DNA of 25,000 bases from Diacronema lutheri (taxonomy: Eukaryota > Haptophyta > Pavlovophyceae > Pavlovales > Pavlovaceae). The notes under the pieces were generated by a model. The model saw only the letters and a list, made by a program, of their open reading frames with translations, ran no database searches and had not been told where the DNA came from. Positions 1,289 to 25,000 of the stretch are shown in pieces. The stretch lies in the NCBI GenBank assembly GCA_019448385.1, contig JAGTXO010000076.1:1-25000 (forward strand), in the 5' to 3' direction. The position numbers and the translations under genes are program-made. Within the stretch, counting starts at the first letter, position 1. Each line of letters starts with the position of its first letter.

Positions 1289-4200
1289 CTAGCCGAGGCG
1301 CGTCGTGCCGAGGGCCGTCCCGTCAAAGAGCGCGAGGATTAGCTCATCGCGCACCCAGCCGTATGCCACGAGCCGCAGCGGCGTCACGAGGCCAAAGCAC
1401 AGCCCGATCCATGCAGCGCGCGCGAGAGCTCCACCGTAAAGCGCGCGCACGGAGCGCGAGCCTGCGGCCTCGCGCAGCTCGTCGAAAAAGATGGACGAAA
1501 TCGTCTGCACGCTGGTCGAAGAGAGCGGATGCGCGGCCGCCGGCGCGAGCGGCGCGAGCGGCGGCGCGCCGTCGACGCCGCGTGCGCCAGGCGGGCCCAC
1601 TCCCACGTGCGGGCTTCCTGCCTCCATGTGCGGGCTGCCCGGCCCCACGTGCGGGCTGCCCGCGCCGTGCCGCTGCTCAGCAGCAGCGGCGGCCGCGCCC
1701 ACGGCGACGGCCACCACCGCGCCACGCGCGGCCTGCGCGCTCGCCGTCGCCGCCGTGGCGGCGGCGGCGGCGGAGGCGGCCGCAGCCGCGGCGGTCGCCG
1801 CTCGACGGTCGTCGGTCCAGCGCTGCAGCGTGCGCGTGCGCGCGATCTCGAGGGGTGCGGTGAGCAGCGCGGCGGCGGTGGCGAAGAGCACGGTCACTGC
1901 AACGTCGTCGGCGAGCGGCAGCCCGTCGCCCGCCGCCTGCGCGTCCGCCTGGGTCGAGCGCCACGTGCGGTACGCGCCCACACGCACGAGGGTGAGAGGC
2001 AGGTAGGTGAGGACGCTCATAGGGTAGGTCTGCACGCCGAGCAGCAGCGCCTGCTTGTCCGTCGGCCACCACGGCAGCTGCGCCGCGCTCGCCGCGCCGT
2101 GCAGGTCCGCCGCGACGACGGCCTCCGCCTGGCGCAGCAGCTTGAGGGCCTCAAAGGGCGAACGCACCGCCCAGTAGACCACGTCGGCACACAGCACCGC
2201 AACTGGCGGGCGGCGCGCGGCGGCGGCGGGCGGTGCAGGCGGGGAGCGCGCGAGCGCCTCAGGTTGGGCACGAGGGGGCACCCGCACGCACACCCGTTGG
2301 CAGCGCGGGCAAGCGCTGCCCACCGAGTGTCGTGCCGAGGTCGCCGAGCAGCTGCTCCGACAGGTGCGTGCGCATCACGTCGTACGTGGCAAAGAAGGCG
2401 CCGCCCTGCGGCGCGGCGGTCAGAATCGCCGGCACGAGCCCAGCAAACGGCGCGCGCAGCGCATCCGCCCAGCGCAGCCGCGCCACCCGCGCGCCGGCGC
2501 GTGGCGCGTGCGCGTGCGCGCTCTCCGCCGCATCGCGCGCGTGCGCACGCGGCTGTGCGCCGCCGTTGGCGCCACTGCCGCCGGCAGCGCGCGTCGACAG
2601 CTGCACGAGCGTGTCGCCGCGTGTGCGCCGGTGCGCGCGCGTCGTCCGGCGGAGAAGGTCGCGCCGCGCCCACGAGACGCGCGTGCGCGCCGTGTCGAGC
2701 GGATGGAGGACTGCAACCTTCACCACCTCCGTGAGCGCGCCCGCGATGAAGGCGGCGACCGCGATCTCCGAGTCGGCGATGCGCCGTACGGGCGAGCGCC
2801 ACGAGACGAGCTGCTCGCGCACTGCAAGGGGTGCGCGGCGGCGCAGTGCGGTGGGAAAGGGGCAGTGCGATGGAAGGGGCAGCGCGGTGCGAGGGCGCAG
2901 TGCGGTGGGAAAGGGGCAGTGCGATGGAAGGGGCAGCGCGGTGCGAGGGGGCAGTGCGGTGGGAAAGGGGCAGTGCGATGGAAGGGGCAGCGCGGTGCGA
3001 GGGGGCAGTGCAATGGGAAAGGGGCAGTGCGATGGAAGGGGCAGCGCGGTGCGAGGGGGCAGTGCGGTGGGAAAGGGGCAGTGCGATGGAAGGGGCAGCG
3101 CGGTGCGAGGGGGCAGTGCGGTGGGAGGGGGCAGTGCGGTGGGAAAGGGGCAGTGCGATGGAAGGGGCAGCGCGGTGCGAGGGGGCAGTGCGGTGGGAAA
3201 GGGGCAGTGCGATGGAAGGGGCAGCGCGGTGCGAGGGCGCAGTGCGGTGGGAAAGGGGCAGTGCGATGGAAGGGGCAGCGCGGTGCGAGGGGGCAGTGCA
3301 ATGGGAAAGGGGCAGTGCGATGGAAGGGGCAGCGCGGTGCGAGGGGGCAGTGCGGTGGGAAAGGGGCAGTGCGATGGAAGGGGCAGCGCGGTGCGAGGGC
3401 GCAGTGCGGTGGGAAAGGGGCAGTGCGATGGAAGGGGCAGCGCGGTGCGAGGGGGCAGTGCGGTGGGAAAGGGGCAGTGCGATGGAAGGGGCAGTGCGAT
3501 GGAAGGGGCAGCGCGGTGCGAGGGGGCAGTGCGGTGGGAAAGGGGCAGTGCGATGGAAGGGGCAGCGCGGTGCGAGGGGGCAGTGCAATGGGAAAGGGGC
3601 AGTGCGATGGAAGGGGCAGCGCGGTGCGAGGGGGCAGTGCGGTGGGAAAGGGGCAGTGCGATGGAAGGGGCAGCGCGGTGCGAGGGGGCAGTGCAATGGG
3701 AAAGGGGCAGTGCGATGGAAGGGGCAGCGCGGTGCGAGGGGGCAGTGCGGTGGGAAAGGGGCAGTGCGATGGAAGGGGCAGCGCGGTGCGAGGGGGCAGT
3801 GCGGTGGGAGGGGCAGTGCGGTGGGAGGGGGCAGTGCGGTGGGAGGGGGCAGTGCGGTGGAAGGGGGCAGTGCGGTGGGAGGGGGCAGTGCGATGGAAGG
3901 GGCAGCGCGGTGCGAGGGGGCAGTGCGGTACGCGAGCGCGCGGCGTATGCGCGCCGGGCAGAATGCGGGCCAGGTCTCGGCCAAATCCGGGCCGAATCCG
4001 GGCCGAATCCGGGCGATGCGTGCGGCCGCACCTGCACGCGGGAGCGCATCCGAAAGCTCCGCCGCGAACTGCACGTACTCAAACCCGTCGGTCACGTCAA
4101 CGACGATCTCGAGCAGGCCACCGGGAAGCAGCCGCCGCTCGCGGATCGCCTCGAGGCGCTTGCGCGGCAGCGCGACGGCGGCAGCGGCGGGAGAAGGGTT

Positions 4201-4914: not shown

Positions 4915-5058
4915 ACCGGCACTCTGCTGACTGCCTCGGGGCTCGTGAGTACGGCTGGTGACATCGGGAGTCGGGACGCCCGTGATTCGCCGCCTCGCCT
5001 TCGCACGAGTGCGTGAAGCGTAACGCCGCCATCAGCATCAGCCGCCTTAGGCGCCCGC

Positions 5059-5481
5059 TTAGTTGGCATAGGCGGCGGGCCCCGGCCCGATGCTCAGCGC
5101 ACGCTCGTCGAAGCGCTTGGACGTTGCGAACTTGAAGCTCGCCGACTTGAGATGCCGCCCGTCCGCCCGGCTGATCGCCTTGCCCGCGGTGCCAAAGCTC
5201 GAGTAAACGAGGGTTGGGCCGGGCATATCAGCCGCCTGCGTGCGCTTGCAGTGCTCGGCCGAGATGAAGAGGTTTGGCTGCGCCACGGGGCGCGTGGGGC
5301 GTGCGCGCGTCGGACGGCGCGCGCGGCGGCGCGCCGGCCGCGGCGCGTGCGCAGCAAGCCTCACGTGCGTGCGCGGGCCCTTCGGCACGCTGTGCGCGGG
5401 CTCACTCGTGCGCCGCGATAAGTGCTGCGGCCCGAATGAGGAGCGCAACTTGGTCTTCTTCGGCGCCTCTGCTTCCGTCAT
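5059..5481 (-). CDS. SHIPPO/PG-rich repeat ciliary protein (ODF3/CIMAP-like)
   Basis: Two exons, 5481-5365 and 5277-5059, joined by an 87-bp intron (CAC|GTGAGG ... GCGCAG|CCA, phase 0), give 111 residues starting MTEAEAPKKT. The order of motifs fits the sperm-tail PG-rich family: RSSFGPQHLSRR, a basic KGPRTHPNLFISAEH segment across the splice junction, ADMPGPTLVYSSFG, SFKFATSKRF and a C-terminal GPGPAAY. Family members bind or line axonemal microtubules. Removing the intron turns an arginine-rich low-complexity insertion into this continuous motif, which supports the splice model. A frame open upstream of 5481 lacks an ATG, so the ATG at 5481 was chosen. The gene is head-to-head with a PPP1R36-like gene, another cilium-associated family. 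Confidence 0.75.
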   Translation of the reverse strand: MTEAEAPKKTKLRSSFGPQHLSRRTSEPAHSVPKGPRTHVRLAAHAPRPARRRARRPTRARPTRPVAQPNLFISAEHCKRTQAADMPGPTLVYSSFGTAGKAISRADGRHLKSASFKFATSKRFDERALSIGPGPAAYAN

Positions 5482-7468: not shown

Positions 7469-7518
<50 letters not shown>

Positions 7519-7530
7519 GGGGGGAGGGGG
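7469..7530. repeat. G-run in the convergent intergenic space
   Basis: About 49 consecutive G, then GAGGGGGGAGGGGGG, lie just after the PPP1R36-like stop codon and directly before the 89-bp array. The run interrupts a sequence (CCCTG-CGACAG ... GCTGTGCAAATC) that otherwise resembles one repeat-unit junction, so it appears to have expanded inside an array copy. Confidence 0.85.
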
Positions 7531-8019
7531 GCTGTGCAAATCGCCCTTGATGCGGTGGAGATCCTGCCGCACGCACTGATCAGTGAGCGCAAACAGCCAT
7601 CAGGCAGCCCTGGCGACAGGCTGTGCATATCGCCCTTGATGCGGTGGAGATCCTGCCGCTGGCACTGATCAGTGAGCGCAAACAGCCATCAGGCAGCCCT
7701 GGCGACAGGCTGTGCATATCGCCCTTGATGCGGTGGAGATCCTGCCGCTGGCACTGATCAGTGAGCGCAAACAGCCATCAGGCAGCCCTGGCGACAGGCT
7801 GTGCATATCGCCCTTGATGCGGTGGAGATCCTGCCGCACGCACTGATCAGTGAGCGCAAACAGCCATCAGGCAGCCCTGGCGACAGGCTGTGCATATCGC
7901 CCTTGATGCGGTGGAGATCCTGCCGCACGCACTGATCAGTGAGCGCAAACAGCCATCAGGCAGCCCTGGCGACAGGCTGTGCAAATCGCCCTTGATGCGG
8001 TGGAGATCCTGCCGCACGC
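7531..8019. repeat. 89-bp tandem array, five copies plus a partial
   Basis: Units begin with GCTGTGCAAATC or GCTGTGCATATC at 7531, 7620, 7709, 7798, 7887 and (partial) 7976. Each full copy carries the perfect palindrome CACTGATCAGTG. Copies differ mainly at CCGCACGCAC versus CCGCTGGCAC and AAATC versus ATATC. The partial right-hand copy merges into the last recognisable exon of the minus-strand gene, so the unit seems to derive from exon sequence encoding RQDLHRIKGDLHS. The period is not a multiple of three. Confidence 0.95.
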
Positions 8020-11996: not shown

Positions 11997-14900
11997 ATGG
12001 AGCGACGGCACGGCGCGGAGTTCCACTCGGCCGGCGCGAACGCGGCGCGCGCTCCCGACCCGCTCGTTGGCAGCTCGTGCGTCGTCTCCGATCCGGTGGC
12101 GGCGCGGCTCGCCGTGCCGTTCGCCGGTGCGCGCGCGCCGCAGACGCTGCCTCCACCCGCGACCGCGCAGCGGCTGGCCGCCGCGACGCGCGCCGACGGC
12201 CGCGGCCCGACTGCTGCGCTCACGCCGCTGCGCGGCAGCGCGCCCTTCGTATCGAGCGCGGAGGGCTTGCCGCAATCCTCCGCCACGGATGACCGTGGTT
12301 TGCTCGCGCGCGGGGCCATTGCCGGCGGTTGGGTCGGCGGTACGGCCGCCAGGCCGGCCGCCGGCGCGTGCGCGCCCGCGCCGGGCTTCGGCTTTGCGAC
12401 GCATGCGCCGGTCGCGCCCGCCGCCGCGTCGTCGCTCGAGATGGTCGCGTGGCTCAAGCTCGCCGTCGACCGCCAGCGCGTGCGCATCGGCCCGCCGCTT
12501 GACCGTTATGTCGCGGCCGCGGCCGCGGCCGAGCCCGCGTCGCCTCGCCGCGGCGCACAGCCGCAGCCGCCGGCGCTCGGCGACGCGCTGCTCGCGACGG
12601 CGCGTCGGATGGTGGCGCGCATCCCGTTCGCCGGCGATGTGAGCGCGCACACCGCGATCGGGCTCGGCGCCGCCGCCGGCGTGGCGGCCGACGCGGGCGG
12701 CTGCTGCGGCGTTCCGGGCGGTCCGGGCGATGCGCTTGGCGAGGTGATCGTGCGCCTCTTCTTGCACGCGCTGGGCAATATCCTCGTCGCGGAGGAGGCG
12801 CGCCTTGCCACCGGCCCCGCTGCGTGCGCGTGCGTACTGCGCAACGAGCGCTTCTGCGCCGCCACGCTGCTCTGCGCGGCGGAGTGCGTTGTGTGCGCAC
12901 ACAACGCGACGCCCCTCATGTTTCCCGCGCTTCTCGCACCGCTCGGTGTACAGCCCTACGACCTGCTCAAGGTGCGCCTCAACCCCCCCCCCCCCCCTCC
13001 CCCCTTTCCATTCCATTCCATTCCATTCTATTTCGCGACGTCGCTTGGCTCACCCCCCCCCCCTTCCCTTCCCCCTTCCCTTCCCCCCCCCCCCCCCCCC
13101 TTCCCTTCCCCCTTCCCTTCCCCCTTCCCTTTCCATTTTGCCCTGTGCGCAGGTGCTCGATTCCTTCGTGCGCGCAGAGGCGCCGCCCCCGCCCCTGCGC
13201 GCACACCTGCACCGCGTCGAGGTATCGCTGCTCGAGCAGCGCGTGTGGTGCGATGGGTCCGCCCTCTTCTCCCTCCTCGCGCACCAGCCGCACGAGGCGG
13301 CGGCACCCGGACATGTGCCGGCGGCACCCGGACATGCGCCGGCGGCACCCGGACATGCGCCGGCGGCACCCGGACATGCGCCGGCGGGATTCAGATGCGG
13401 CGGCGGGGCCGACGGCGCGGGCGCGCGCGCCAACGGCGGCGTTGAGGGCATTGCGGGCGGTGGTACGCACGGCGTGGCTCTGTGTGAGATGGGCGGTGGT
13501 ACGCACGGCGTGGCTCTGTGTGAAATGGGCGGATTGGCCCTCTTCTGGCGCAAGGTGATCTACCTGGCAGCAGCCCGACTCCATGCGCTTTGCGCACAGC
13601 TCCACTCGCCACATTCGCACCTGCAGCATAGCTGGCGTGTGCTCAAGGATGTGCGCGCGAGAGCGCCCAGCGGCACGCACCTGCGCCCGCCCTGCCCCTT
13701 CCCCCCCCCCCAGCTACTGCGCAACCAGACAGGTCCCCCCATCCCTCCCCATTCCCCCTCTCCCCCCCCCCCCCCCAGCTACTGCGCAACCAGACAGGTC
13801 CCCCCATCCCTCCCCATTCCCTCCCCCCCCCTCCCCCCCCAGCTACTGCGCAACCAATCAGATCTCCCCATCCCTCCCCCCCCCCCCCCCCCCCAGCTAC
13901 TGCGCAACCAATCAGATCTCCCCATCCCTCCCCATTCCCCCTCCCCCCCCCCCCCCAGCTACTGCGCAACCAATCAGATCTCCCCATCCCTCCCCATTCC
14001 CCCCCCCTCCCCCCCCCCCCAGCTACTGCGCAACCAATCAGATCTCCCCATACCCCCCCATACCCCCCCCCCCCCCAGCTACTGCGCAACCAATCAGATC
14101 TCCCCATCCCTCCCCATTCCCCCCCCCTCCCCCCCCCCCCCAGCTACTGCGCAACCAATCAGATCTCCCCATACCCCCCCATACCCCCCCCCCCCCCCCC
14201 CCCCAGCTACTGCGCAACCAATCAGATCTCTCCATACCCCCCCATACCCCCCCATCCCCCCCCCTCCCCCCCCCCCCAGCTACTGCGCAACCAATCAGAT
14301 CTCCTCCGATCGCGCCACCTCGACCAGCTCACCCTCTGCGCTGTCTACGGCGTGGGCAAGGCGCAGGGCCTCGCGCTCACCTTCCGCGCAATCGTCGACG
14401 CGTACAAGCGGCTGCCCCACGCCACGAGTGCCGTCTTCAGCGACGTGTCCATGATGCCGCTCAGGCCACACGCCCAACCCGCGCAGCCCGCCGCGCGCAC
14501 GGCGCCCGGCGTGTCAGGCGGCGTGGGCGCGTGCCGCGGTGACATCATTGAGTTTTACAACCGCCTCTTCCTGCCCGCGGCCAAGGCGTTGCTCCTGCAG
14601 CCGCCGAGCGCCGAGGCCGCCGCCATGCCCGCACCCTCCCCGCACGGCGCGGCCACTGGCCTCGCCCACGCGGAGGGCCATACGCCGCCATGGATTTTGG
14701 CTCAGACGATGGCGGCCATCGTTGGCGAGCAGCCGCCTGCCCGCGTGCCGCCTCCGCCCACGGATCGCGCGCAGCTGCCGTCGGTGCACGCGCTGCTTGC
14801 CGCTGGGGGCCAACGGCCGTTGCGTGCGCATGGCGGCCCAATTGACACACGCGGCAGCTCGGCCGTTGGCTCGCCCCCCCGCCGCGTGGGTGCGGGGGCG

Positions 14901-16319
14901 AGCCAACGGGCGCACGATGGCGGCCACGATGGCGGCCACGATGGCGGCCTCTACGCCCACACGCGCGTGGGCGCGGGTGCGTCGCAGGTCAGCCGCTGCG
15001 CGCGGCGGGCGGGCGCTCGCACGAGCTCATCCCCCTTCCCCCCCCCCCTCCCCTCATTTTGCCGCCCCCTCCCGCCCCCCCCCCCTCCCTCCCTCCTCGC
15101 ACGAGCTCACTTCCCCATTTTGCCGCCCTTGCAAAGTTGCGAGCGCCTCTGGGTTCTCTCACGCGCTCCCTCCCCCCCTCCCCCCCCCCCTCCCCCCCCC
15201 CCCCTTCCCACCCCCTCCCCACCCCCTCCCCTTGCATGGCAGGAGCTGGCGTCAGCCGCCCCCGCTGATTGTGCGTTCACCCCGCGCACACGCACGCTCT
15301 ATTGCTTTGGCACCTCGCCCGCCCTCGAGCTGCTCAAGTTGAATCGCAGAGTGAACGGCTTGCCCGACCTGCCCGAACCCAAGCGCAGGCCGCCCCAGCC
15401 GCATCCTTCTTCCTCCATTGCCCTTGCACGCCAGCAGGCAGCGAGAGCCGCCGCTTTTGCCGCGGCCAGGGCGGCGCTGGGGGCCACCGCTCGCCCACAC
15501 GCCGCGCCGCGCGGAGAGAGCGAAGGTGCCGACCCCGACGTCGGCATGGCAGGCGACGCGCGCGCGCCGCCGCCGCGCGCGCTCGCGGCGTGCACGCAGC
15601 CGCCCGCCGTGGCACCCGCGGCGTTGCGGCCGGCGGTGCTCGTCCCGCCCGCTGCGCCGCCAGCCGCCTGCGTGGCGTGTGGCGCGCAGGCGGTGGCCAA
15701 GCGGCCCGCCGCCGCCATCGCCGTGCCCGCTGCTCCCATGGGCGGCGTGCCTATGAGCGGAATGGTGCAGTGCGCGGCTTTGGACGGAGCTCTACCCGAA
15801 GCGAAGCACGCGTGCGTCGATTTGACGGCAGTTACCCGCTGCGCAGAGGTCACGGTGACGCTGCAACACCCCCCCCCCTCCCCCCCCCCCCTCCCCATCC
15901 CCAAACGTATCTCCGCACCCTGCGCGGATGTGCGCTGCGACGCCATGCTCCCTCTCCCGCTGATTGTCGTTACCCCCCTCCCCCTTCCCCCTTCCCCTCC
16001 CCCTTCCCCCCTTCCCCTCCCCCTTCCCCTTCCCCCCGTCCTCCCGCGAGCGCAGCGACCGGCCGACGCCGCGCCGTCCGCGCTCGCAGCGGCAGCCGCC
16101 GCCGCCGCCGCGGCCGCAGCTCTTGGCGCCGCCGTCCCGCTCGAGAGTGCCGGGGCGACGGCATCGCCATTGCTACCGAGCGGCAGTTTGCAGGGCGGCG
16201 GCGACGGCGAGGCGGACGACGACGACGACGACGACGACGACTCAAACTTGTTTCACGAGCTCGATTCGGAGCTGCACTCGGACGATGGGGATGAGCTGGA
16301 CGACGAGATCGACGACTGA
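11997..16319 (+). CDS. Retinoblastoma-related pocket protein (RBR), five exons
   Basis: Exons 11997-12971, 13153-13650, 14280-14987, 15243-15848 and 16056-16319, all phase 0, give 1016 residues. The A pocket spans about 140-375 (FCAATLLCAAECVVCAHN, LGVQPYDLLK, then VLDSFVRAE after intron 1). The B pocket spans about 455-600: FWRKVIYLAAARLHALC, then LLRSRHLDQLTLCAVYG and IVDAYKRLPHA, then IIEFYNRLF. Residues matching the human LxCxE cleft (Tyr709, Lys713, Tyr756, Asn757) are present as Y514, K518 and the YN of EFYN. A C-terminal ALELLKLNRRVNG block matches the conserved RB tail, and the protein ends in an acidic D-rich stretch. RB proteins repress E2F/DP and control G1/S in the nucleus. The N-terminal cyclin-fold domain (DUF3452) is not visible. 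The A-B spacer holds two coding repeats and intron 2 is a splice-site array. Confidence 0.9.
13303..13386. repeat. 21-bp coding repeat, 4 copies, in the RBR A-B spacer
   Basis: Units start at 13303, 13324, 13345 and 13366 and encode APGHVPA or APGHAPA. The repeat lies in the spacer between pockets A and B, a region known to vary in this family. Confidence 0.95.
13455..13526. repeat. 36-bp coding repeat, 2 copies, in the RBR A-B spacer
   Basis: Two near-identical units encode GGGTHGVALCEM twice, directly before the first helix of the B pocket (LALFWRKVIYL). Confidence 0.95.
13704..14304. repeat. Array of ten copies of the RBR intron-2 3' splice site plus exon-3 start
   Basis: A C-rich tract followed by CAG|CTACTGCGCAACCA occurs ten times; the base after AG is at 13714, 13779, 13843, 13897, 13959, 14023, 14079, 14144, 14207 and 14280. 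Spacing is 54-73 bp. Copies 3-10 continue ATCAGATCTC; copies 1-2 read GACAGGTCCC instead. The last copy is the true exon-3 start, in phase with the LLRNQSDLLRSRHLDQ of the B pocket. The array has no stop codon in any forward frame. Confidence 0.95.
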
Positions 16320-20667: not shown

Positions 20668-23600
20668 ATGGCGGCCGACAACACCAACGGGCACTCAAAC
20701 GGGCGCTCGAACGGGCACTCGAACGGGCATGCGAATGGGCACGCGTCCAGCGGCGCCAGCCGCGCCCCCGAGCCCGTGACCGCCTGGATCCGCTTCGTCA
20801 CGTACATCCTGGAGGCACGCGCGCCGAGCGGCGCCGAGCGAGCGCGTGGCGAGGCCTTGAGCCACCCTCGCGCGCTCCGCGTAGGCCGGGCGCCTGGCTC
20901 TCAGGCGCTGTGCGCGTGGGTCGCGCGTTTTGAGCCGCACGCCTCGTCGCGCACTCCGAGCCGCGCGCTCACTCGCGCCGCGCCTCCCCTCGCACGCACG
21001 CCGTGCCACCGATGCCCGCCGCGTTTGGCCGACTCGCGTGCCTCCGCCGCCGCGTTCCCTCGCCGCGCGGCGCGCAGGAGCACCGCGGCAAGATCAACTT
21101 CTTCATCGTGCTCCCCATCTCCTTCCTCTGCGATGTGGTCTGGTCGTGGCGCGACTGGTACTACGAGACCTTCTGCACCACGCCGCACCTGCACGGCCAG
21201 CGCGTCGCCGAGGTGCAGCGCCAGGTGTGCGCGCAGCGCCGCACGCAGCGCCAACGCGCCTGCAGGCGCGGCCACCGCGCGGCTGAGCGGCCAGCGCGGC
21301 CACCCGGCGCAGGGGCCGCGCGGGCGCGGGCGGGGAGAGCGCACAGAGCCCGGGAGGGGGGGGGGGGGGGGGGGGGGGCAAATGGCACCCCCGCCAGCTG
21401 AGAGGGGGGCGGCACCCACAGCCAATGAGAGGCGCGCGGGCTGCCTGATGCCCCACCCCTCGGGGCAGACATTGGAGCAGGCGTGGTAGACGTTGGAGCA
21501 GGCGTGGCGGCGTGGCAGACGTTGGAGCGGGGCGTGGCGGCTGGCCTCGTCCGCATCTCACCGCACCGCCGCCCCGCCCCTCCGCCGACTGCGCGGCGCC
21601 ACCGCCGTCGCCGCCGCCGTGCCGCGCCGTCCGCCGCCGCGCAGGTGCGCGAGTGGCGGGCGCGCAAGGACGCGGGCGAGGAGGTTGGCAAGATGTGCAC
21701 CGACCGCAAGCCTTTCCTCACGATGGGCCCGGCGACTCGCACCTTTAAAAAGGAGTGCCGCAAGATCAAGTGCTCCGACATGTGTGACATCCTCAAGGTG
21801 GACCACGAGGCGATGACCGTCACGTGCGAGCCCCTCGTCAACATGGGACACATCACGCGCGCGCTGCTCCCGATGGGGTGCGGCGCACGCACAGTCGGCC
21901 GCCAGCCCGCCGAGCGCGTCCGCTTGCCCGCCTCCGTCCGCCTGCCCTCCCCCTTCACCCATTCCATCCCATCCCATCCCTTCTCTCTTCCCTTTTCCCT
22001 TCCCATCCCTTCCCTCCTTTTGAAAAAAGGTACGCGCTCAAGATTCAAATCGAGATGGAGGACCTGACGATTGGCGGCCTCTCGATGGGGCTGGGGATGG
22101 AGACCAACTCGCACCGTTTTGGCCTCATCCAGGAGGTGCGCGCTGCTGTGCCCCCCCCCCCCCCCCCCCCCCCGAATCCCCCATCCCAAGCTCTATCCGG
22201 GGGGCAAGCCAGTCAGTATCCAGCCAGTCAGCCAGTCAGCCAGTCAGCAGCTCGGGTCGACTTTGGCCGCTCGCATGGCACTCATCCCCCACCCCCCCCA
22301 CCCCCCACCCCCTCTCTTGCTGTCCCAGACGATCCGCGCATATGACGTCGTCCTCGCGTCGGGCGAGCTGGTGCACTGCACGCGCGACAACGAGCATGCG
22401 GCCCTCTTCGGCGTGATGGCGTGGAGCTGCGGCACGCTCGGCTTCCTCGTTGCTGTCGAGGTGAGGGAGGGAGGGGGGGGGGGGGGACACGCAGTGTGCG
22501 TCACCGTTTGGCCCTGACACCCCCCCCCCCCCCCCCCCCCCCTACCCCTCGCCCCATTGGGTGTGTAGGTTGAGATCGTCAAGGTGAAGCCCTACGTGCG
22601 AGCGACCTACCTGCCGTGCTTTACGCTGCAAGAGCACTGCGCGGAGATGAAACGCCTGTCCCTGCTGCCCGAGGGGCAGACGCCGCCGTGAGCGCAGCCC
22701 ACTGCCCCCCCTGCCACCACCCGCCCCCCCCCCCGCCCCCCCCTGCCCACCCCTGCCCTCCCCTGCCCCCCCCCCCCCCCCCCTGCCCCCCCTGCCCCCC
22801 ACACCGCCCAGCGCACGCGCGGGAGCCGCGCGCGTGCGCGTGGGCATGCGCGCACACGGCGCCGCCCCCCCCCCCCCCCCCCCCCCCCCCCCCCTTCTTT
22901 CCGCAGCTACCTCGAGAGCACCGTGTACGGCAAGGACCGCGCAGTGATCCAGTGCATCGAGTTTGTCGACATCAGTTGGCGCGAGTGGCTCTTTGAGGTG
23001 AACTCGTGCAACCTGTGGTTTAAGCCCTACTACTACAAGTGGTCCGCGCGCGCGAGGGCGCGCGCCGCGCTGCTGTGCGTGGCTTCCCACGCGCCGAGTC
23101 CCCTTTCCCGTCCCTTTCCCTTCCCTCCCCTTCCCTTCCTTTGCTTTCTTTCCCGTCCCCTTTCCCCTCCCCTCCCCTGCCGCGCACGCGCTGCCGCGTG
23201 CGCGCGCAGGGTGGAGGGCGCGTTCGAGCGGACCAACCGCGCGACGGGCAAGCCCGGCTTCAGCGAGATCCTGCCGATCAAGCATTACTACCACCGGTGT
23301 GTGGCGCGGGGTGCTGCTACGCTCTTAGGCTGTGGCCAAGGGGGGGGGGGGGGGGGGGCAGCACTGCAGCGCTCTTACGCTGCTACGCTCTTACGCTGTG
23401 GCCAAGGGGGGGGGGGGGGGGGGGGGGCAGCACTGCAGCGCTCTTACGCTGCTACGCTCTTACGCTGTGACCAAGGGGGGGGGGGGGGGGGGGGGGGCAG
23501 CACTGCGGCGCTCTTACGCTGCTACGCTCTTACGCTGTGACCGGGGGGGGGGGGGGGGGGGGGGGGCAGCACTGCGGCGCTCTTACGCTGCTACGCTCTT

Positions 23601-25000
23601 ACGCTGTGGCCAAGGGGGGGGGGGGGGGGGGGGCAGCACTGCGGCGCTCTTACGCTGCTACGCTCTTACGCTGTGACCAAGGGGGGGGGGGGGGGGGGGG
23701 GGGCAGCACTGCGGCGCTCTTACGCTGCTACGCTCTTACGCTGTGACCAGGGGGGGGGGGGGGGGGGGGGCAGCACTGCGGCGCTCTTACGCTGCTACGC
23801 TCTTACGCTGTGGCCAAGGGGGGGGGGGGGGGGGGGGCAGCACTGCGGCGCTCTTACGCTGCTACGCTCTTACGCTGTGACCGGGGGGGGGGGGGGGGGC
23901 AGCACTGCAGCGCTCTTACGCTGCTACGCTCTTACGCTGTGACCGGGGGGGGGGGGGGGGGGGCAGCACTGCGGCGCTCTTACGCTGCTACGCTCTTACG
24001 CTGTGGCCAAGGGGGGGGGGGGGGGGGGGGGCAGCACTGCGGCGCTCTTACGCTGCTACGCTCTTACGCTGTGGCCAAGGGGGGGGGGGGGGGGGCAGCA
24101 CTGCGGCGCTCTTACGCTGCTACGCTCTTACGCTGTGACCGGGGGGGGGGGGGGGGGGGCAGCACTGCAGCGCTCTTACGCTGCTACGCTCTTACGCTGT
24201 GACCGGGGGGGGGGGGGGGGGGGCAGCACTGCGGCGCTCTTACGCTGCTACGCTCTTACGCTGTGGCCAAGGGGGGGGGGGGGGGGGGCAGCACTGCGGC
24301 GCTCTTACGCTGCTACGCTCTTACGCTGTGGCCAAGGGGGGGGGGGGGGGGGGGGGGCAGCACTGCGGCGCTCTTACGCTGCTACGCTCTTACGCTGTGA
24401 CCAAGGGGGGGGGGGGGGGGGGGGGGGGGGGCAGCACTGCAGCGCTCTTACGCTGCTACGCTCTTACGCTGTGACCGGGGGGGGGGGGGGGGGGGGCAGC
24501 ACTGCAGCGCTCTTACGCTGCTACGCTCTTACGCTGTGACCGGGGGGGGGGGGCAGCACTGCGGCGCTCTTACGCTGCTACGCTCTTACGCTGTGGCCAA
24601 GGGGGGGGGGGGGGGGGGGCAGCACTGCGGCGCTCTTACGCTGCTACGCTCTTACGCTGTGACCAAGGGGGGGGGGGGGGGGCAGCACTGCAGCGCTCTT
24701 ACGCTGCTACGCTCTTACGCTGTGACCAAGGGGGGGGGGGGGGGGGGGGGCAGCACTGCGGCGCTCTTACGCTGCTACGCTCTTACGCTGTGGCCAAGGG
24801 GGGGGGGGGGGGGGGCAGCACTGCGGCGCTCTTACGCTGCTACGCTCTTACGCTGTGGCCAAGGGGGGGGGGGGGGGGGGGGCAGCACTGCGGCGCTCTT
24901 ACGCTGCTACGCTCTTACGCTGTGGCCAAGGGGGGGGGGGGGGGGGGGGGCAGCACTGCGGCGCTCTTACGCTGCTACGCTCTTACGCTGTGACCGGGGG
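20668..25000 (+). CDS. DHCR24: Delta(24)-sterol reductase (DHCR24/DWF1-like), 3' end beyond the window
   Basis: Eight exons are visible: 20668-20814 (end uncertain), 21078-21224, 21645-21877, 22030-22135, 22329-22460, 22569-22684, 22907-23041 and 23210-23296; phases agree at every junction from exon 2 on. The enzyme reduces the sterol side-chain double bond using FAD and NADPH in the ER. Marker blocks in order are an N-terminal hydrophobic anchor (FFIVLPISFLCDVVWSWRDW), PHLHGQRVAEVQ, the FAD-binding core MEDLTIGGLSMGLGMETNSH and WSCGTLGFLVAVE, then FVDISWREWLF, WFKPYYYKW and LPIKHYYHR. The N-terminus has an unusual NGHSNGRSNGHSNGHANGH repeat. About the last 200 residues of a typical family member lie outside. 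Exon 1 has no good phase-0 GT donor next to the expected end; GAG|GC at 20815 or GT at 20881 are options. Confidence 0.9.
21467..21540. repeat. Short tandem repeat in DHCR24-like intron 2
   Basis: Three diverged copies of AGACGTTGGAGCAGGCGTGG occur with variable linkers. A G-run at about 21355-21378 lies upstream in the same 420-bp intron. Confidence 0.8.
22208..22251. repeat. CAGTCAGC short repeat in DHCR24-like intron 4
   Basis: Several units of CCAGTCAG occur between a C-run (about 22151-22172) and a C-rich tract before the acceptor at 22327-22328. Confidence 0.8.
23326..25000. repeat. G-run minisatellite in DHCR24-like intron 8, at least 25 copies, open at the window edge
   Basis: Units of about 57-73 bp are spaced by CAGCACTGC (first near 23359, last near 24951). 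Each has a conserved part with a doubled CTCTTACGCTG and a G-run of about 11-30 bases. Length differences lie mostly in the G-run; small variants are TGACCAA, TGGCCAA and TGACCGG, and GCAGCG versus GCGGCG. The first, diverged unit (CTGCTACGCTCTTAGGCTG) lies right after the donor at 23297, so the array seems to have grown from the 5' end of the intron. It continues past the window. Confidence 0.95.

Follow-up and report, generated by a model that had tools for sequence, protein, structure and literature searches.

Intron 2 of a retinoblastoma (RB)-family gene in the alga Diacronema lutheri consists mostly of a minisatellite in which the 3' splice acceptor of the intron stands ten times in tandem, each time as a C-tract ending in AG and followed by 14-25 nt of exon 3. 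The array is real and probably near-neutral, and the instability of poly-C DNA seems to have produced it as a side effect more than selection for a tuned switch. Only its last acceptor, which starts exon 3 at 14280, joins exons 2 and 3 into an intact B pocket according to the predicted frames. Copying of splice junctions recurs in this genome, and it is not general.

The RB-family gene and its acceptor array

The window, the whole 25-kb stretch of DNA that was analysed, is the start of contig C31. A telomere-like CTAACC run (5.2 copies, 337-367) lies inside a 168-bp duplication (199-517) near its beginning, so the RB gene may be close to a chromosome end. The gene and its array are arranged as follows:

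11997..12971, plus strand: exon 1, RB_A part (Pfam RB_A 40.3 bits, cut-off 25)
12972..13152, plus strand: intron 1, C-rich, GTGCGC...GCGCAG, containing a 37-bp duplication
13153..13650, plus strand: exon 2, end of RB_A and start of RB_B (Pfam profiles)
13651..14279, plus strand: intron 2, 629 nt, phase 0, GTGCGC...CAG, mostly array
13701..14304, plus strand: minisatellite, C-tract-AG acceptor repeated ten times together with 14-25 nt of exon 3 (Tandem Repeats Finder, exact matches)
14280..14987, plus strand: exon 3, 236 codons, followed by a GT donor (RB_B 42-144)
14988-15242, plus strand: predicted intron 3, 255 nt, in-frame stop absent
15243..16319, plus strand: predicted exon 4, ending in the stop codon 16317-16319

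The initial annotation had called the gene RB-related, and the two features of the RB/pocket family, RB_A in exon 1 and RB_B in exon 3 (72.5 bits on 14280-14984), both exceed the Pfam cut-off; judged by these profiles it is an RB-family pocket protein. Exon 2 scanned alone stays below the cut-off for both, with RB_A 156-195 at 18.9 bits and RB_B 2-39, at residues 128-165 of 166, at 19.1 bits. At 13650|14280, exon 2 thus reaches RB_B position 39 with one residue left and exon 3 resumes at 42 after one residue; positions 40 and 41 are filled by these flanking residues, so the junction adds nothing and loses nothing. The joined exons align to human RB (1gux, E 2.3e-22) gap-free at the junction, with one single-residue gap six residues upstream. 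Predicted intron 3 might be retained, its frame being free of stops. In predicted exon 4, C-tracts translate as in-frame proline-rich stretches (15869-16037).

Tandem Repeats Finder places the array at 13701-14304 with a period of 65, 9.6 copies and a score of 801, and reports a 120-bp pair period within it. The unit reads C-tract-AG-CTACTGCGCAACCA..., and the tenth copy is the true exon 3 acceptor. The ten tandem acceptor copies first noticed in the sequence are borne out by CAGCTACTGCGCAACCA, which occurs ten times without mismatch, at 13711, 13776, 13840, 13894, 13956, 14020, 14076, 14141, 14204 and 14277. Across the genome searched (43,492,796 bases, 103 contigs) this sequence has 20 matches with at most two mismatches, namely the ten exact ones, one with one mismatch and nine with two, and all matches outside the window are single. 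Each of the ten acceptors has 8-21 C directly before the AG, and by its sequence no copy seems a poorer acceptor than the true one. The units measure 65, 64, 54, 62, 64, 56, 65, 63 and 73 nt, lengths divisible by three in two of nine cases. The unit had been described as a tract, the AG and 25 exon bases; this fits six of the nine upstream copies, while one carries 24 nt of exon 3 and the first two carry 14 nt, followed by four mismatches within 23.

The 25 kb of the window are rich in C/G runs of at least 8: there are 66, and 27 remain when the RB array and a second array at 23313 are set aside, compared with 21 in 13 control stretches of 10 kb, of which 12 were picked without looking, one adjoins the window, and one is partly N.

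Origin of the array and age of the intron

The copied exon part ends at base 25, within the first pyrimidine run of at least 5 in exon 3 (bases 21-28, TCTCCTCC). Slippage or unequal repair would have rejoined this run to the C-tract of the intron, and with a breakpoint in the pyrimidine run every unit would acquire a tract, an AG and 14-25 bases of the exon. Microhomology of the pyrimidine run with the C-tract would then suffice to explain the length of the exon part, with no involvement of splicing; one breakpoint argues for this route. Later rounds would have multiplied single units and unit pairs. Once the C-runs are collapsed, copies 4, 5 and 7 share one sequence and so do copies 6 and 8, which together with the 120-bp pair period points to stepwise local amplification. 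The C-run lengths within the array probably vary.

The intron itself is probably young, since a paralogue lacks it at the same point and a relative appears to lack it too. The paralogue on C33 (C33:133493-133687) covers RB_B 33-97 in one open frame through the intron 2 position, and has its own intron, predicted by eye, a few codons upstream. The relative, P0001, which comes from a public assembly, was matched in a protein search with exon 3, which also gave a weaker match to P0002; a search with exons 2 and 3 together returned no match, and one with P0001 returned only P0001 itself. P0001 is contiguous at the junction and has the same length there as the spliced RB gene. It begins at the start of exon 2 and diverges at about the end of exon 3, which suggests that it derives from genomic DNA with the neighbouring introns and without intron 2. 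On this comparison, which comprises one relative and one paralogue, intron 2 is probably lineage-specific.

We therefore consider it likely that the minisatellite arose from the C-tract that closes intron 2 on its 3' side and is near-neutral, with an intact B pocket obtained through 14280 only and the other acceptors latent or noisy. 

Outcome of each acceptor and competing readings

The reading frames of the ten acceptors rest on C-runs of 8-21 nt, whose single-base lengths are not safe in a PacBio assembly polished with Illumina reads, and are as follows in the assembled sequence:

13712..13713, plus strand: acceptor 1 (AG), exon start 13714 if used, stop at 14452
13777..13778, plus strand: acceptor 2, in frame with 14280, 167-residue insert
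13841..13842, plus strand: acceptor 3, stop at 14452
13895..13896, plus strand: acceptor 4, stop at 14452
13957..13958, plus strand: acceptor 5, in frame, 107-residue insert
14021..14022, plus strand: acceptor 6, stop at 14452
14077..14078, plus strand: acceptor 7, in frame, 67-residue insert
14142..14143, plus strand: acceptor 8, stop at 14540
14205..14206, plus strand: acceptor 9, stop at 14540
14278..14279, plus strand: acceptor 10, the true one (RB_B continuity; 1gux alignment gap-free at the junction)

It had been claimed that the copies starting at 13779, 13959 and 14079 are in frame with 14280, that the other six upstream copies shift the frame, and that no forward frame of the array holds a stop, and all three points stand. 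The three in-frame inserts of 167, 107 and 67 residues are largely proline-rich, the six shifted frames end at 14452 or 14540, both inside the RB_B-encoding stretch 14280-14585, and TAA, TAG and TGA are absent from all forward frames of the array. By these frames 14280 is the sole acceptor that yields an intact B pocket. Three in-frame acceptors out of nine is the chance value (P of three or more = 0.62), and tuning of the array for frame was rejected on this count. As a sign of coding, the lack of stops was likewise rejected: shuffling the whole array gave a mean of 8.6 stops and no stop-free case in 2000, a comparison in which the copies are not independent, while a single shuffled unit was stop-free in 15% of 2000.

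Neutral slippage and a length-variable alternative-splicing cassette had both been offered as explanations, and slippage is the better of the two. A cassette, in which several acceptors are used and proline-rich peptides are added to the pocket, would draw on ten acceptors with 8-21 C straight before the AG, three of them in frame in a stop-free array. Nevertheless, the number in frame is that of chance, six of the nine upstream acceptors run into the stops at 14452 or 14540, and the frame-keeping expected of a regulated in-frame cassette is seen in three of nine acceptors and two of nine unit lengths. The 67-167 residues would enter a predicted B-box helix, the insertion point falling after K116 in P0001, within helix 105-121 of a low-confidence predicted structure (mean pLDDT 44, block means of 62-78 for residues 81-160); in that model a proline-rich insert at the K116-equivalent site would probably harm the fold. 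Neither P0001 nor the C33 paralogue shows an intron there, and frames set by long C-runs are probably unstable. The cassette reading is thus unsupported and very unlikely. The same stops could alternatively act as a brake, if upstream acceptors captured part of the pre-mRNA and led to premature stops and nonsense-mediated decay, so that copy number would set the RB dose. Six of the nine upstream acceptors do reach stops in exon 3, and acceptors that look equal to the true one lie ahead of it; we hold this possibility to be rather unlikely. 

Near-neutrality, with 14280 as the main productive site and the upstream acceptors as latent or noisy sites, is what we infer. Under the first-AG rule, a branch point upstream of the array would favour acceptor 1 over the tenth, which counts against 14280. 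The array might also be constitutively exonic and encode a proline-rich insert, being stop-free in each of its frames; yet its intron of 629 nt shifts the frame by 2, read-through stops at 14452, and RB_B joins exactly without the array, so that this reading is scarcely credible. Inflation or misassembly of the array would be understandable, as repeats with C-runs are difficult to assemble. An excerpt of the genome report (PMC8379373) describes PacBio subreads (N50 23 kb, about 315-fold) polished with Illumina reads, and subreads of this length can bridge 0.6 kb, while the copies carry substitution differences and a pair structure, although C-run lengths may still be off. An assembly artefact is accordingly highly improbable.

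Similar arrays in the genome and relation to known systems

The search for similar arrays began from C-tract-AG patterns among the matches listed. Long C-tracts that run uninterrupted up to an AG show no enrichment in the genome, with 144 places for C10AG against 459 for the backwards pattern and 120 against 304 for C14AG, and were rejected as a general acceptor mark. C8NGCAG is enriched (254 vs 52), with about half of 100 listed places in two C17 arrays, and C7NCAGGT occurs 37 times against 14, with 24 of the 37 in one C6 array. Three C8AG with gaps of 20-50, a pattern too short for the RB units, matched 25 times against 8 for the control, always within the C5 array or the two C17 arrays. For a donor-with-G-tract pattern the count was 538, with many overlaps, against 232 for the control, and the matches listed reach into C14, so that donor arrays further on would go unseen. 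Among the first 100 of the 144 C10AG matches, 59 are single and 41 fall in six same-strand clusters with neighbours less than 500 bp apart, on C5, C6, C17 (twice), C31 and C64; the 100 listed of 120 C14AG matches, reaching C84, showed no further clusters. No tract-AG array was seen in the 13 stretches of 10 kb by a scan that also missed the known C5 array and is not fully sensitive.

The six C10AG clusters together with arrays on C29, on C14 and at 23313 of the window make up nine C/G-tract arrays, outside which further low-copy or pure-pyrimidine arrays lie. Their gene context places copies of a splice junction in three (the RB array included), none in five, and C5:1152k in neither class; the figure of three in nine gives no genome rate, as the starting point was C-tract-AG among the matches listed. 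The suggestion that other introns might hold copies of their own junction thus found one homology-verified case besides RB, a donor array, and did not prove general. The two other junction arrays are:

C6:128893-131607, minus strand: NEK-like kinase array, 32 donor-junction copies (pattern starting at GT)
C64:16782-17066: GCTCAA(G/T)GT with G-tracts in six copies, of which three read AAG|GT; the first copy lies at a predicted exon end

In the C6 array the first copy is the donor of an exon of a NEK-like kinase, whose exons, joined at an acceptor picked by eye, give a gap-free alignment of 97 residues with NEK1 (4apc, E 2.8e-29). CAG precedes the GT in all 32 copies, a count from a pattern that needs GT and misses GT-less copies, some of which may hide in a few spacings of 139-149; five exon bases are common to 29 of the 31 further copies. 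The unit, GT...C-tract-CAG, resembles a short intron, as if exons of zero length separated the units. Unit lengths modulo three are 0 in 7, 1 in 13 and 2 in 11, so that splicing from another donor copy would in most cases disrupt the frame. The C64 donor junction is a prediction without homology support.

Five arrays were rejected as junction arrays. That at C17:129k is intronic and begins 92 nt downstream of a predicted donor; that at C17:194k lies inside an ORF resembling, by eye, a tyrosine recombinase; that at C29:172k is intronic (by eye); no exon edge was seen in 621 bases at C14:162k; and the array at 23313-24995 of the window starts after a predicted donor and has a unit without one. 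In the last, a 67-bp unit containing G-runs of 12-27 is repeated about 25 times. The C17:194k array (L035 about 5004-5450) is made of C-tract units, has the inverted ends CGGATGGGCGCCACCTC, is flanked by a direct repeat of 13-14 bp and interrupts the ORF; its unit also builds the 2.4-kb array at C17:129k. It looks as if a minisatellite had moved. The window further holds a G-rich array of 20 copies of a 54-bp unit (2843-3929) and an 89-bp unit repeated 5.5 times (7469-8019), adjoined by a G49 run, whose last copy on the minus strand seems, by eye, interrupted by an inserted C-run. CCCCCCCCGGCAG occurs at about 21,160-21,700 from the contig start on C1, C2, C5, C6, C10 and C12 and is perhaps a shared chromosome-end repeat.

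The nearest known kind for the junction arrays is the minisatellite of the human gene IFI6, which reportedly carries multiple splice donors that are used. Both are tandem repeats across an exon border with a splice signal per unit, in the RB array in 10 of 10 units; the IFI6 signals are reportedly used donors in a human gene, whereas those of RB are C-tract acceptors in an alga. The C6 array, also made of donors, stands nearer to IFI6 than the RB array does. NAGNAG and other tandem acceptors place competing acceptors ahead of one exon, as the RB array does, but the latter has ten, 54-73 nt apart, tandem-duplicated and mostly frame-breaking. Recursive splicing uses AG|GT ratchet points, which the C6 kinase units fit with C-tract-CAG|GT, while in the RB units the acceptor is not followed by GT, apart from a weak AG|GTCC at base 19 of the first two copies.

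Young introns of Daphnia, in an excerpt of PMC4202315, hold internal direct repeats of 4-17 nt; RB intron 2 is similar in being probably recent and lengthened by internal duplication, but its units are 54-73 nt long and include exon sequence. Introners are lineage-specific introns, and an excerpt of PMC9860276 names Chrysochromulina among the carriers. RB intron 2 is probably lineage-specific too but has a unique 5' part (13640-13712) that matches only itself genome-wide, and an introner origin was rejected. Among the titles and abstract openings listed in literature searches, none described a minisatellite repeating a splice acceptor.

Two or three such arrays in one genome could be more than accident, which weighs against the near-neutral reading. 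Junction arrays are seemingly driven by homopolymer instability and not by transposons. A wider view, which we regard as improbable, is that poly-C/G slippage at intron ends is a recurrent source of 'junction minisatellites' in which the splice site of a gene is repeated, that copy number serves as a quickly mutating rheostat of splicing in genes including two cell-cycle regulators, RB and the NEK-like kinase, and that the kinase array permits recursive splicing through zero-length exons. The finding gains interest because such copying of splice borders has occurred at more than one place in the genome. Ten equivalent acceptors and 32 donors are natural tests of how the spliceosome chooses among identical sites, and the choice would be readable from RNA data of the kind generated by the genome's authors, who prepared three 150-bp paired RNA libraries (PMC8379373). 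The arrays also show a route by which introns may lengthen and exon borders may be copied into introns.
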